Assembly: GCF_014280075.1 (NCBI RefSeq)
Contig: NZ_CP047950.1
Coordinates: 372,001 to 436,000, forward strand
Source: Synechococcus sp. A15-62
Lineage (GTDB): Bacteria > Cyanobacteriota > Cyanobacteriia > PCC-6307 > Cyanobiaceae
DNA length: 64,000 nucleotides
Reading direction: 5' to 3'
This document shows positions 59,057 through 63,807 of the stretch, piece by piece. Numbering within the stretch: the first letter of the stretch is position 1; every line of letters starts with the position of its first letter. Below the pieces are notes generated by a model, which worked only from the letters and a program-made list of their open reading frames with translations, did not search any database and had not been told where the DNA came from. The translations under genes were made by a program, and so were the position numbers.

Positions 59057-59710
59057 GTGATTATTTCTGAAGTGAACGGCGATTCGACGATCCCTTCTGT
59101 TGATGCATTGTTTGAAGACCTGATGCATCCCAACCCAAGGATTCAAGAAGAAGCTTGTTTGATTCTTTCTGAGAACTATCGGGAAGAAGCATTGCCAAGA
59201 TTGTTAGATCTGTTTTGTCATCATGACCCTAAAGTTTATAGAGCAGCTGTTAAAGGCATTGGTTTCTTTGGAAGTGATGCATTCGATCCTTTGATCGACC
59301 TTTATGCAACAACAGCCAATCAAACTGCAAGGCGTTGTTGCCCCAAAGCATTCGTGCAAGTATTCAAGAATTTTCCCGATCAGCCGTTTCCTGATTCAGT
59401 CATGCAAATGTTGGAGCAAGGAATCGACGATTCAGATATGGTTGTCGTACAAGGTGCGTTGATGTGTCTTGGTCAGATCGGCAAGCAACAATTCAAGTCT
59501 GAAGAGGCAATCCAAATTTTGGCAAAGTCTCTCAGCAGCCAAAATGTTGCTTTAATCTTCAGTGCATCTCAGGCTCTTGCCGATATTCCCAATCCTTTGG
59601 CAGAAAACGCTTTACGTTCACTGCGGAAAAATAATGATGATCCCTTGATTCAGGAGGCTGCACAGTCTGCATTGGCACGACTTCAGAATCTACTCAACTC
59701 AAAGAGTTAG
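59057..59710 (+). CDS. cpeZ: Phycoerythrin lyase partner CpeZ (HEAT-repeat)
   Basis: CpeZ is a chaperone-like partner that stabilises phycoerythrin and boosts CpeY. The product of about 217 aa is made of HEAT repeats (PRIQEEACLILSENYREEAL; DPKVYRAAVKGIGFFGSDAF; MVVVQGALMCLGQIGKQQFK; VALIFSASQALADIPNPLAE). The start is GTG at 59057 or GTG at 59072 (VNGDSTIPS), with no ATG nearby. It lies 54 bp after cpeY, and its stop is 8 bp from the convergent Nif11 gene. Confidence 0.85.
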   Translation: MIISEVNGDSTIPSVDALFEDLMHPNPRIQEEACLILSENYREEALPRLLDLFCHHDPKVYRAAVKGIGFFGSDAFDPLIDLYATTANQTARRCCPKAFVQVFKNFPDQPFPDSVMQMLEQGIDDSDMVVVQGALMCLGQIGKQQFKSEEAIQILAKSLSSQNVALIFSASQALADIPNPLAENALRSLRKNNDDPLIQEAAQSALARLQNLLNSKS

Positions 59711-59718
59711 ATGTTCCT

Positions 59719-60063
59719 TCATCGAGGTATAGTTTCTACTCCATCGTAATAACCTCCAGCGCGGAAGTCAAAACGTTCTACTTTGTCCTCTTTAGCACAA
59801 GTCGTCTGCGAATAATGTAGCAGCGTGCTGAATCCTTCCGGCACCATCTTGGGGCATAGTCTTCCAACATCATTGGCAAATGGGCAGAAGTACACCCCTG
59901 CCCATCGATTAAGAAAACGCCCTTTTATTTCATCAGAAAAGATAAATCCATGTTGATCAGCGAGCTTGAGGATCTCCTCGGGCTCAGCTTCTTTGAACAG
60001 GGATCTGAACGACAGGTCTTCTTCTAGAACCTGAAGAAAGCGTATGAATTCAGCACGTGACAT
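59719..60063 (-). CDS. Nif11-domain protein with unusual C-terminal extension
   Basis: Residues 1-50 (MSRAEFIRFLQVLEEDLSFR; EPEEILKLADQHGFIFSDEI) match the Nif11 domain, best known as the leader of prochlorosin-type peptides and from nif loci. The following 65 residues contain two Cys in YFCPFANDVGRLCPKM, one in TTCAKE, and Arg/Gly/Tyr near the end (FRAGGYYDGVETIPR). No GG or GA cleavage motif separates leader and tail, and no modification enzyme is nearby. It is one of the small unknown genes of the rod locus and is divergent from the MpeZ-like gene. Confidence 0.7.
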   Translation of the reverse strand: MSRAEFIRFLQVLEEDLSFRSLFKEAEPEEILKLADQHGFIFSDEIKGRFLNRWAGVYFCPFANDVGRLCPKMVPEGFSTLLHYSQTTCAKEDKVERFDFRAGGYYDGVETIPR

Positions 60064-60416
60064 GATGAACCAGCGGCATATCCGTATTTTATCAGCAACT
60101 ATCCGCTTCTTATCAGCGTCTTTTTACTTTTTTATGTCTCAGTAGGCCACCAATAATTTTATATGGCAGCGTACTTTTCCTGTGCTGATCTTATATGGAT
60201 AAAGAATTGAGCCGGTCACAATTTGATGATTGGACAAATCGTCATTAGCTCGAATTTAATCAACGACTACTTGTTAATTCTTTATTAATTGTAGTGGTTT
60301 ATTGTTCTTAAAATAGATGTCCACTAATTATCAATCTCTTTGCCGTGCGGGTCACTTCTTATCAAATCAGATTTGCCGATCAATTTTTCTGTAAAAATTG
60401 AATATACGCATATTGC
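60064..60416. promoter_or_regulatory. AT-rich divergent region upstream of the MpeZ-like gene
   Basis: About 350 bp with no gene. It contains short direct repeats: TTATCAGC twice near 60088-60116 and TTATATGG twice near 60158-60198, and an AT-rich inverted element (TTAATTCTTTATTAATT near 60273-60290). It would hold promoters for the Nif11 gene (minus) and the MpeZ-like gene (plus). If this is a CA4 island, light-colour regulation by the downstream regulators is expected here; no operator is proven. Confidence 0.45.
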
Positions 60417-61610
60417 ATGGTGCCAAGTTCACAGCGATTTGATAATTTGTTTTCATGGATGGGTGAACAGCAAGCAATTGAGTTGCTTTCGCAAAATGTT
60501 AGTACTCTTGATAATCCTGGCATCAAATATATAGCTGCAACACGGTTGGGAGCTTGTTCTTCAAGAGACTCTCTAGATGCATTAGTTGTAGCGGCCACTG
60601 GGGATAGAGACAATATCTTCGATTCCATTACGCGTCGTAAGTCTATTGAAGCGCTAGGGCGTCGTCGCGACCTTAGTACTCTGCCAACCATTTATGAAGC
60701 TATGCATAGTAGTGATGAGCAGACGATTGTGAATTCAGTAGATACGCTAATTCATTTTGGCATACCTCTTGATGCTCAGTTTAAATCATCTCTTTTGAAG
60801 ATTATTCAAAATGGCTCCGATGTCCTCAAGCGTGTTGCCATTCAATGTTTCACGCGTTTGGAGATGCATGAGTTTAATGGCATCATTCGTGAGCAAGAGA
60901 GCAATCCAAATATATTGGTTAATGGCGCATCAATCGCTTATTCAATAAGGGTTGAAGATGACAAGCGTAAATTGCATATTCTTGAAAATCACCTCAACGA
61001 TTTGAATGTCATACATAGACGTTCATCCGTCATTGATATTGGTGACGCTGGAGACCCTTCTCTTTTGTCAAGTATTTCGAAAGCAGCGGTGTCAATGCCT
61101 TTGAGAGCTAAAAGTGCGTTCAAGATGACTTCTAAAATTAAAACTAAATCACAAAGAACATTAATCAATCAAATGTTGAAGGATGATTCTCGTCATTTAT
61201 ATTTTACACAGAAATTTGATGCACCAAATGATTTAGAAAAAGTTTGTGATTTCCTTAAGCATAGAGATGAGGAGCGCCAGTACTTTGGTGCTAAGGCCTT
61301 ATTCAGTTGGCCAGCTTCAACTGTAACTGACGCAATTAAGACTATTTGGGACAATCATGGCTCTGATTATGGTGTTCACTATCAAGTAAATTGTTTGGTG
61401 TCTCAACTCGGCTTAAAAGAATTGTCTTATATAATCAAGGAATCATTATTGGAGCCGGCTCCGCAGTATGCAAAATCAAAAATAGCTGCGACTTGGGGAT
61501 GTTTAACTTTAGGTTTAATGGAATGTCGTAGTGATATTGAAAATCTACTTTTAAAATCCACTTGGGAGCCCCTACGATGGACATGCGCGGAAGTCTTACG
61601 TGAACTATAG
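60417..61610 (+). CDS. mpeZ: MpeZ/MpeY-type phycoerythrin bilin lyase-isomerase
   Basis: MpeZ attaches phycoerythrobilin to Cys83 of the PE-II alpha subunit and isomerises it to phycourobilin; MpeY is the non-isomerising relative. The 397-aa product is a CpeY paralog made of HEAT repeats (ARTRRKSIEALGRR-like repeat in DSITRRKSIEALGRRRDLST; NSVDTLIHFGIPLDAQFKSS) with the shared YGVHYQVNCLVSQLGLKEL motif near residue 320. The MpeZ call rests on its position facing the regulator pair. AT-rich, no Shine-Dalgarno before the ATG. Confidence 0.75.
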   Translation: MVPSSQRFDNLFSWMGEQQAIELLSQNVSTLDNPGIKYIAATRLGACSSRDSLDALVVAATGDRDNIFDSITRRKSIEALGRRRDLSTLPTIYEAMHSSDEQTIVNSVDTLIHFGIPLDAQFKSSLLKIIQNGSDVLKRVAIQCFTRLEMHEFNGIIREQESNPNILVNGASIAYSIRVEDDKRKLHILENHLNDLNVIHRRSSVIDIGDAGDPSLLSSISKAAVSMPLRAKSAFKMTSKIKTKSQRTLINQMLKDDSRHLYFTQKFDAPNDLEKVCDFLKHRDEERQYFGAKALFSWPASTVTDAIKTIWDNHGSDYGVHYQVNCLVSQLGLKELSYIIKESLLEPAPQYAKSKIAATWGCLTLGLMECRSDIENLLLKSTWEPLRWTCAEVLREL

Positions 61611-61635: not shown

Positions 61636-62601
61636 CTATATTGGCAATCTATATCTTCTCGACTTTTCGATGGTCTGACTTGGAAGTTCTCCGAATGCAG
61701 TGTAATAGCGCCGTGCATATCTCCCCTGATGTTTAAACCCATATTTAATTGCAATATCTCGAATTGAATATAGATTTAGTTTCCGACGAGCGTCTTGGTT
61801 AAGCATAATTCTTCTGGATTCTTCAAGTCTGATTTGTGTCATCAATTCAATAATTCCCATTCCAAAGTACTCCTGACATATGCGATATAATGATGCTTGA
61901 CTTGTATTTATATACTTGCATACTTCAAGCAATGACAGAGGGGATTCCATGCTCTTCTCACTATGTGCAAGATTAATGATTTCTCTTAATTGATCGATAT
62001 GTTTTGGATCTTGACTATTTTGAGCAGTCATTGGCTCTTCTAGACATGCGATTACAAGATCGAAATATTTTTCTGGGTTCTTAATTCCAGAAGATACTTC
62101 TTTGGCGGCTAAACTCTTAAGTTGGTTTAGAGCTTTATTGTTGCAATAAATCCCATGATCACCCGTGAGTCGTTCAAGTCCATCATAGGCATTGCAATTT
62201 TCGAGTAGTTCCAATAGGAGCTGCTTTTCAAGCATGCAACCAGTACTAGAGCATTCGTTGTTATATTTTCCCCATGCATTTCCTGGTACTGCATTAATCG
62301 TGCCAAATCCAGCTAGGCTATTTTTTGTCATCTTAAATCCATCACAATAGCCAAAGGCTCCTTGAGTATTCGCTTTTGGTGTAATCCAATTAAAATCAAT
62401 AGTTATACCATTGCCCCACCCCTCGTACAATAATGTTTTGTTGGCAGATATTTCTGCAAGTGTGACTTTATTAGTATTTGCTGTTTGCATAGTATAAAAA
62501 CCATTGCCACCTTCCAGTTGCGTTATTTTTGTAAGCTGACCGAGTTTTGCAAGCTCTTCAGAGAGCTCCAGTGGATCACGATATTCAATAGATGTTTTCA
62601 T
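61636..62601 (-). CDS. AraC-family regulator, second of tandem pair (FciA/FciB type)
   Basis: In CA4 islands two such regulators, FciA and FciB, control the switch between blue- and green-absorbing phycoerythrin; I cannot say which of the two this is. The 321-aa product has an N-terminal ligand/effector domain of about 200 residues (VTLAEISANKTLLYEGWG; DGFKMTKNSLAGFGTINAV). A complete AraC double HTH follows: TSQASLYRICQEYFGMGI (first) and IRDIAIKYGFKHQGRYARRY with FGELPSQTIEKS (second). It is 3 bp downstream of the other regulator, convergent with the MpeZ-like gene. Confidence 0.82.
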   Translation of the reverse strand: MKTSIEYRDPLELSEELAKLGQLTKITQLEGGNGFYTMQTANTNKVTLAEISANKTLLYEGWGNGITIDFNWITPKANTQGAFGYCDGFKMTKNSLAGFGTINAVPGNAWGKYNNECSSTGCMLEKQLLLELLENCNAYDGLERLTGDHGIYCNNKALNQLKSLAAKEVSSGIKNPEKYFDLVIACLEEPMTAQNSQDPKHIDQLREIINLAHSEKSMESPLSLLEVCKYINTSQASLYRICQEYFGMGIIELMTQIRLEESRRIMLNQDARRKLNLYSIRDIAIKYGFKHQGRYARRYYTAFGELPSQTIEKSRRYRLPI

Positions 62602-62604
62602 GTA

Positions 62605-63657
62605 TTACTCTCCCTTCCATGCACTAAATGAATATAATTTCTTATTAGATCGATCTATTGTTTGGCTGGGTGATTCTCCAAAATATGTGGAGTAGGAGGC
62701 TTCAAATTTTTTCCAGTTCTTAAAACCGTAGTAAAGTGCTGTTCTCTTTTTTGTAAACTCTTTGAGACCTGTTGAGGAATGTGGAGTTAAAAAAGCCTTG
62801 CGGGTCTGTTCAAGTCGTACTCTTCTTACTAGCTCAATTACATCCATATTAAAGATTTTTTGACAAATAGTATTGAGAGACTCTGTTTTTGAATTCAAGT
62901 ATTCAGTAATTTCGTCAAGTGTTATTGGCGGCATGCCAGCCCTATCTTCGTGAATTAGTTTAACCAAGTCTTCTATAAGATCCGTTGACTCGCATCGATG
63001 TGCATCATAGGTTGATTCATTATTTTCATTGTCTAGGAATATGATTGCTAGATCGTAAAATGAATTTGGTTTCGTTGATGGTTGGCTATTAAAATGTCGG
63101 CTAAATAATTTTTTGAGCTGAGCACTTGCATGATCATGCGAGTCAATTCCAATGCATTCCTCAAGCCTCGCATAGGCATTAAATGCATTCAATTTGTTGA
63201 TTCTTTCTTTTAATTTATTCCATTTCAGGCTCATGCAGCAAAGCTCTTCGTTTGCTCCCACAATGTCCCAGATATTTCCTCCTGTTTTGTTTATCCGATT
63301 GAAGCCAGCAATGCTATTTCTTGTCATTTGGTGGCCGCTTATGATTGTCTGTGCCTCCGCATCTTTTGCCGCTAATGTGTCTAGCCAGCAGAATGACACT
63401 GATTTTGTGTTGGCTTCTTCCTCGTAGAGCAGAGTTTGGTTCGATTTAAAAATTTCAAGATGCACGTCTTCAATTGGTGAGCAAGTGGTCTTCGTTTCGA
63501 GAAGGCCGGTGCTTAACTGAGTTACATTGCATCTGAAGCTGGATGTTGAGTGATATTCTTCAAAATGTGCCTTGCAAAACTCTTCCATCTCGAGCGTGTC
63601 GGAAAAAATATAATTGCGCGATCGTTTTTTTCGCAAACTTCTTCTGCGTATTTGCAT
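62605..63657 (-). CDS. AraC-family regulator, first of tandem pair (FciA/FciB type)
   Basis: A paralog of the downstream regulator: same layout, with matching N-terminal blocks (LEIFKSNQTLLYEEEANT; GHQMTRNSIAGFNRINKT). The C-terminal HTH region is more diverged: the second helix-turn-helix reads FTKKRTALYYGFKNWKKFEA with FGESPSQTIDRS. A basic N-terminal stretch (RRRSLRKKRSRN) is present if ATG 63657 is used; ATG 63588 (MEEFCKAH) is an alternative. The 350-aa gene is followed 3 bp later by its paralog, so both are probably on one transcript. Confidence 0.8.
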   Translation of the reverse strand: MQIRRRSLRKKRSRNYIFSDTLEMEEFCKAHFEEYHSTSSFRCNVTQLSTGLLETKTTCSPIEDVHLEIFKSNQTLLYEEEANTKSVSFCWLDTLAAKDAEAQTIISGHQMTRNSIAGFNRINKTGGNIWDIVGANEELCCMSLKWNKLKERINKLNAFNAYARLEECIGIDSHDHASAQLKKLFSRHFNSQPSTKPNSFYDLAIIFLDNENNESTYDAHRCESTDLIEDLVKLIHEDRAGMPPITLDEITEYLNSKTESLNTICQKIFNMDVIELVRRVRLEQTRKAFLTPHSSTGLKEFTKKRTALYYGFKNWKKFEASYSTYFGESPSQTIDRSNKKLYSFSAWKGE

Positions 63658-63666
63658 ATTCTATTG

Positions 63667-63807
63667 TTATTCCTTGATTGCGCGTAAGAAGCTTAACGTT
63701 TTTCTGAATGATTGCTTTTTGTCTTTTTGGTATCCACTTTCTATCAGATCGCCTGCCCTTTCTTGTCTTTGTGTTAATGCGGAGGCATGATCTCCTCGCC
63801 TGAGCAT
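63667..63807 (-). CDS. Candidate 46-aa small ORF upstream of the regulators
   Basis: An open frame encoding MLRRGDHASALTQRQERAGD and ending SFLRAIKE, helical and highly charged. AGAGG lies just 1-2 nt before the ATG, a suboptimal spacing. The stop is 9 bp before the regulator ATG. It lies in the same frame as the upstream partial gene, separated by two TAG stops, so it may be a remnant of a formerly longer gene rather than a functional peptide. Confidence 0.4.
   Translation of the reverse strand: MLRRGDHASALTQRQERAGDLIESGYQKDKKQSFRKTLSFLRAIKE

Follow-up and report, generated by a model that had tools for sequence, protein, structure and literature searches.

Unk10, a strongly constrained Nif11-domain protein at the edge of the CA4-B island of Synechococcus sp. 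A15-62, and a candidate FciA/FciB operator box in its promoter

The analysed window, a stretch of 64,000 nt from the genome of Synechococcus sp. A15-62, contains a CA4-B island with the gene order cpeY, cpeZ, unk10 on the reverse strand, a bilin lyase gene on the forward strand, fciB and fciA on the reverse strand, and mpeU. The presence of fciA and fciB and, on the other strand, of a lyase gene, all flanked by mpeU and cpeZ, matches the strand and gene order described for CA4-B islands (PMC3877281). The unk10 gene (59719..60063, minus strand, ATG end at 60063), at exactly the coordinates given by the earlier note, encodes 114 amino acids and lies at the edge of the island within the phycoerythrin-II region. 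Its left neighbour (59057..59710, plus strand) is named cpeZ by its position in CA4-B and island-free gene orders. On the other side follows, divergently transcribed as in the CA4-B arrangement, the bilin lyase gene of the E/F clan (60417..61610, plus strand), and then fciB (61636..62601, minus strand) and fciA (62605..63657, minus strand), which encode the AraC-family proteins of the island (PMC3877281).

The earlier note had placed the gene between cpeZ and an "MpeZ-like" gene. The place is right, but the island in this window is of type CA4-B (unk10, mpeW, fciB, fciA), and the lyase is therefore MpeW and not MpeZ. It shares 80–97% identity with its positional counterparts in seven further CA4-B islands (47% with that of the distant locus L068), about 40% with MpeY from its own genome and about 35–38% with MpeZ. 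Sequence and position both fit MpeW, a predicted PEB lyase.

The open reading frame itself is a known gene, and finding it here is a rediscovery. Unk10 was named in 2007 (PMC2246261), and its N-terminal Nif11 domain was noted in 2013 in a study that gave a length range of 107–118 amino acids, which includes the 114 found here, and rooted the Unk10 tree with a Crocosphaera sequence (PMC3877281).

The Nif11 N terminus previously read from the sequence alone was recovered by Pfam model PF07862, which matches residues 1–44 with an E-value of 3.9e-8 (33.9 bits, gathering cut-off 23.8); the domain spans residues 1–45. It is followed by the likewise predicted three-cysteine domain of ~60 residues, in which C60, C70 and C89 are invariant across 26 diverse orthologs, as is W54. 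Mean pairwise identity among the collected orthologs is 0.53 in residues 1–45, 0.72 in residues 46–106 and 0.88 in residues 39–61. Overall dN/dS was 0.035 and 0.112 in two groups of orthologs; it was 0.080 in the Nif11 half versus 0.010 in the C-terminal half in the group of CA4-B and island-free loci, and 0.155 versus 0.075 in the CA4-A group. These dN/dS values and the occurrence of the gene in 43 of the 399 genomes of the order establish unk10 as a real, strongly constrained gene.

Unk10 is the sole full-length copy in its genome (a single contig of 2,294,140 bases), and a profile of the C-terminal domain gave one significant match per genome. A Pfam search with this domain yielded no convincing family match, and among 386 sampled genomes of the phylum there were no convincing relatives outside Unk10 but weak partial matches only, the best of them (E-value of 0.0025) within a frame of 1213 amino acids. 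Searching solved structures returned just one weak match, the Nif11 protein 9zn4 (E-value of 0.023), and none with the single sequence. Two AlphaFold runs from eight sequences reached a mean pLDDT of 57 and 68 with conflicting C-terminal folds, and a fold search with these shallow, poor models gave no match. A phage or viral origin was rejected: there was no match to phage records, and the lone match to a viral contig (L125, 27 residues) was unconvincing once its DNA was read.

Nif11 matches occur 11 times in the genome, eight of them above the cut-off. Just to the right of the window lie three consecutive small unk7-9 genes of Nif11 type (L052:6803-7700), one of which exceeds the cut-off of model TIGR03798; together with Unk10, the phycoerythrin-II region thus holds up to four Nif11-related proteins. 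Two further proteins came to our attention. One, of 71 amino acids (L003:1501-1716), ends in GEYH and resembles the conserved -GEYH/N- Nif11 family, which is listed as being of unknown function (PMC10783134). The other, of 188 amino acids (L004:1456-2022), has an N-terminal Nif11 match and, judged by eye, resembles a cupin in its C-terminal part.

For the phyletic analysis, the unk7-9 cluster protein of 106 amino acids (here called Unk7; its number in the literature may differ) served as a marker for phycoerythrin II. It was detected in 60 of the 399 genomes, seven of these being weak matches in one other genus, and it is present in all 43 Unk10 genomes. FciA was found in 26 of the 55 marker-positive genomes tested, every one of which also has Unk10, while the remaining 17 Unk10 genomes lack FciA and often have unk10 adjoining bilin-lyase genes. 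Whether the orthologs track with cpeYZ or with the CA4 island, a question raised by the earlier note, therefore has a mixed answer, the marker being the constant element. That Unk10 is kept without FciA argues for a function distinct from the colour switch. Pigment types were deduced from gene content, and genome completeness is uneven, so that a few absences may reflect gaps.

The tree of MpeU-like lyases has two clades, MpeU and MpeV. Unk10 occurs in all 15 sampled MpeU-clade genomes; of 11 sampled genomes with MpeV-clade genes only, seven lack it and four have it, three of the latter carrying fciAB. The strict co-occurrence of Unk10 with MpeU that we had expected beforehand thus holds in part only.

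The neighbourhoods of the orthologs fall into several arrangements. In CA4-B loci unk10 is divergent from mpeW. In island-free loci the order is cpeZ, unk10, mpeU, with unk10 roughly 100–170 bp past mpeU on the same strand, and the constraint on it is equally strong there. In CA4-A islands fciA is the divergent neighbour of unk10 and mpeZ lies at the opposite end; in islands without fciAB (L070, L073, L074, L078) unk10 is divergent from mpeZ. A 469-aa CpcE-CpcF fusion lyase is encoded 47 bp downstream on the same strand in L091. At two loci (L075, L093) unk10 lies amid rod linkers, and at three others (L067, L089, L095) no recognised lyase was found near it. The commonest companion of Unk10 is thus a bilin lyase, though not the sole one. 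Two of these loci have unusual surroundings. On the other side of Unk10 in L091 (7066-9506, G360) lies a short ribbon-helix-helix-like frame, reminiscent of FciC by eye, so that this may be an unusual island. In L067 (G191) Unk10 is distant from recognised phycobilisome genes and near a gene that by eye resembles a resolvase-like recombinase, which may hint at mobility.

Aligning the regions upstream of unk10 revealed a tandem repeat directly before its ATG. The copy nearer to the gene (TGATAAAATACGGATA, 60079..60094, minus strand, 16 bp from the ATG) is an exact match to the pattern TGATAANNNNYGGAYA, and a second copy in the same orientation (TGATAAGAAGCGGATA, 60100..60115, minus strand) lies exactly 21 bp from it. 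A third box (TGATAATTAGTGGACA, 60318..60333, minus strand) precedes mpeW by 83 bp and points in the opposite direction to that gene, with a half-match of 11 bits (TTGATAAGAAGTGACCC, 60349..60365, minus strand) 31 bp away from it. Beyond the gap, a copy with one mismatch (TGATAGAAAGTGGATA, 63731..63746, minus strand, 21 bits) is located 74 bp before fciA in the direction of that gene; it recurs at the equal place in six CA4-B loci (L053, L055, L056, L058, L061, L063), three of these copies being exact.

The 2.29-Mb genome has just three exact matches to TGATAANNNNYGGAYA, all inside the 353-bp gap between unk10 and mpeW and with zero control matches, a count that measures rarity and is not an independent discovery, as the pattern was written after the sites had been seen. 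Four box sites with at most one mismatch were reached in none of 100 shuffles of the window. Among four diverse CA4-B strains, mean pairwise identity is 88% in the box closest to unk10, 94% in the second and 90% in the one before mpeW, versus 59% in the remainder of the gap. Ranked by conservation, the top 17-bp windows of the gap mostly coincide with or adjoin the boxes and the half-match, which is itself among the best of these windows. A simple scan for sigma-70 elements in the promoter region of unk10 did no better than shuffles.

The CA4-A islands played no part in defining the box pattern. Each of the 17 aligned CA4-A islands with fciAB has a box in the stretch from fciB to the fciC-mpeZ pair; a clear box was also expected between unk10 and fciA in these islands, and none was found there. 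Across the 55 genomes examined, a slightly looser pattern, TGRTAANNNNYGGAYA, is present in the island of all FciA-positive genomes but G241 (25 of 26) and adjoins unk10 in 3 of the 17 FciA-negative Unk10 genomes; the association with FciA has a Fisher's test value of 1.2e-7, which overstates the case because the genomes are related. The three FciA-negative genomes with the pattern are close relatives without fciAB (L059, L060, L062) and have a degenerate pair of boxes upstream of unk10 that still shows the 21-bp spacing, as if a CA4-B island had been lost and left relics behind. Two exact matches in one CA4-A genome lie outside the island (G076:C1:2183298-2183313 and 674665-674680), perhaps by chance or as extra targets.

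Direct repeats spaced by 21 bp are typical of the sites of AraC-family regulators, and the boxes at 60100 and 60079 form such a repeat on one strand, an arrangement seen before unk10 only. The box is therefore a candidate operator of FciA/FciB. Alternatively, it could be the site of another regulator, or a common promoter or RNA element. This we regard as rather unlikely, even though the degenerate pair persists in three FciA-negative relatives and shared ancestry inflates the count of 25 in 26: the box stands at four promoters in two kinds of island layout (unk10, mpeW, fciA, fciC-mpeZ), most FciA-negative loci lack it or have a degraded form, and its spacing is that of AraC-family sites. No description of such a box was found in the literature searched, which did not include the principal study of the FciA/FciB regulon. 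That study, by Sanfilippo et al. (PNAS, 2016), reportedly found just three genes to be co-regulated, each of them part of the island. Since the promoter of unk10 shares its rare box with that of mpeW, the two genes are probably switched together in colour-switching strains like A15-62. The box runs in the direction of unk10 and fciA and against that of mpeW and fciC-mpeZ, so that it may have opposite effects on the two sets.

As a tentative explanation, to which we would give somewhat less than an even chance, Unk10 would be an Fci-controlled accessory factor in the attachment of chromophores to phycoerythrin. In CA4-B strains, FciA/FciB would control the divergently transcribed unk10 and mpeW via a common AraC-type operator, TGATAA-N4-YGGAYA, to which they are predicted to bind. 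Unk10 would then assist bilin lyases in loading phycourobilin or phycoerythrobilin onto phycoerythrin, its Nif11 helices binding a partner and its three-cysteine domain providing a conserved activity, perhaps in bilin, metal or thiol handling, in which the cysteines may take part. Phyletic pattern, neighbourhoods and common promoter box support the involvement in assembling or regulating pigment proteins that the earlier note suggested. A lyase-accessory role in particular is favoured by the marker in 43 of 43 Unk10 genomes and Unk10 in 26 of 26 FciA genomes, by the frequent lyase neighbours (mpeW, mpeU, mpeZ and the CpcE-CpcF fusion), and by the distribution of Unk10 over the lyase clades (in 15 of 15 MpeU-clade genomes, absent from 7 of 11 with MpeV only). 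The extreme constraint on the C-terminal half and the box, with its three genome copies, its conservation within the gap and its presence in 25 of 26 FciA versus 3 of 17 FciA-negative genomes, point the same way. Against it count the CA4-A arrangement, in which the neighbour is fciA without a clear box in between, the three loci without a recognised lyase and the two amid rod linkers, the degenerate box pair in the FciA-negative relatives, and the poor structure predictions that conflict on the C-terminal domain. A bolder version, which we think improbable as a whole, holds that the Nif11 domain was recruited beyond RiPP and nif biology as a docking part, that the three-cysteine domain, unique to Unk10, acts in phycourobilin loading, and that one rare FciA/FciB operator switches unk10 and the lyase gene, closes the island as a regulatory unit and decays upon loss of fciAB.

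Two other roles appear about equally doubtful. Unk10 could regulate the colour switch itself, for instance as a partner of FciA/FciB that senses redox state or bilin through its cysteines. Its presence in all FciA genomes tested, the divergent position next to fciA in CA4-A islands, the invariant cysteines and the tandem box in its own promoter would suit such a function, but 17 Unk10 genomes lack FciA, and unk10 is retained beside mpeU in island-free loci under equally strong constraint. Unk10 could also serve the assembly or the structure of phycoerythrin-II rods, as a small chaperone or linker-like protein that has nothing to do with lyases. The invariable presence of the marker, the two loci amid rod linkers and the further Nif11-type proteins in the region are consistent with this. 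The seven sampled phycoerythrin-II genomes that have an MpeV-clade lyase only and no Unk10 argue against it, as they show that Unk10 is not required for phycoerythrin II as such.

That Unk10 is a RiPP precursor of Nif11 type whose core is unusual is very improbable: the Nif11 domain exceeds the Pfam cut-off, and Nif11 genes near photosynthesis genes have been counted among RiPP clusters (PMC10783134), but TIGR03798, the RiPP-leader subfamily model of Nif11, scored below its cut-off (24 versus 32.3 bits), and conservation is higher in the C-terminal half than in the Nif11 half. The HMM search proposed earlier was thus positive for PF07862 and negative for TIGR03798. Precursors of this type are described as having a Gly-Gly motif and a hypervariable core, with modification enzymes nearby (PMC2887384). 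A conserved Gly-Gly is absent behind the Nif11 domain of Unk10, where conservation increases instead, and the LanC-like domain PF05147 was not found anywhere in the genome, in a search that covered, among RiPP enzymes, the LanC-like family only. The claims of the earlier note that cleavage motif and lanthionine synthetase are lacking, and that this is not a RiPP leader, are therefore well founded, the last also strongly supported by dN/dS. In RiPP genome mining, unk10 should not be tallied as a precursor.

By type IV chromatic acclimation, marine Synechococcus fits its antenna to blue or green water. In the literature searched, neither the way in which FciA and FciB reach their targets nor the function of Unk10 is explained. 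The box supplies a short list of exact sites for mutation and footprinting, and the conservation pattern singles out residues of Unk10 for mutation.

Compared with known systems, the gene itself shows no difference from the published Unk10 of marine Synechococcus (Cyanorak CK_00002279; PMC2246261, PMC3877281), with which it shares the position in the CA4-B island, the length, the N-terminal Nif11 domain and the reverse strand; new are the C-terminal constraint, the RiPP tests and the promoter box. The proteins of the unk7-9 cluster (PMC2246261) resemble Unk10 in being small and Nif11-related (two clearly, the 106-aa one weakly) and in sharing its region and phyletic background, but the three-cysteine domain is seen in none of them. 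Nif11-type RiPP precursors (N11P, TIGR03798; PMC2887384), including the prochlorosins, share the N-terminal Nif11 domain and differ in their conserved Gly-Gly, their hypervariable C terminus and the LanC-like enzyme not found in this genome. The tandem box resembles the operator of AraC, with sites I1 and I2, in that two copies are repeated directly at a spacing of exactly 21 bp, and two AraC-family genes belong to the island; unlike in that arrangement, the other promoters here have a single copy, or a copy and a half-match 31 bp off.
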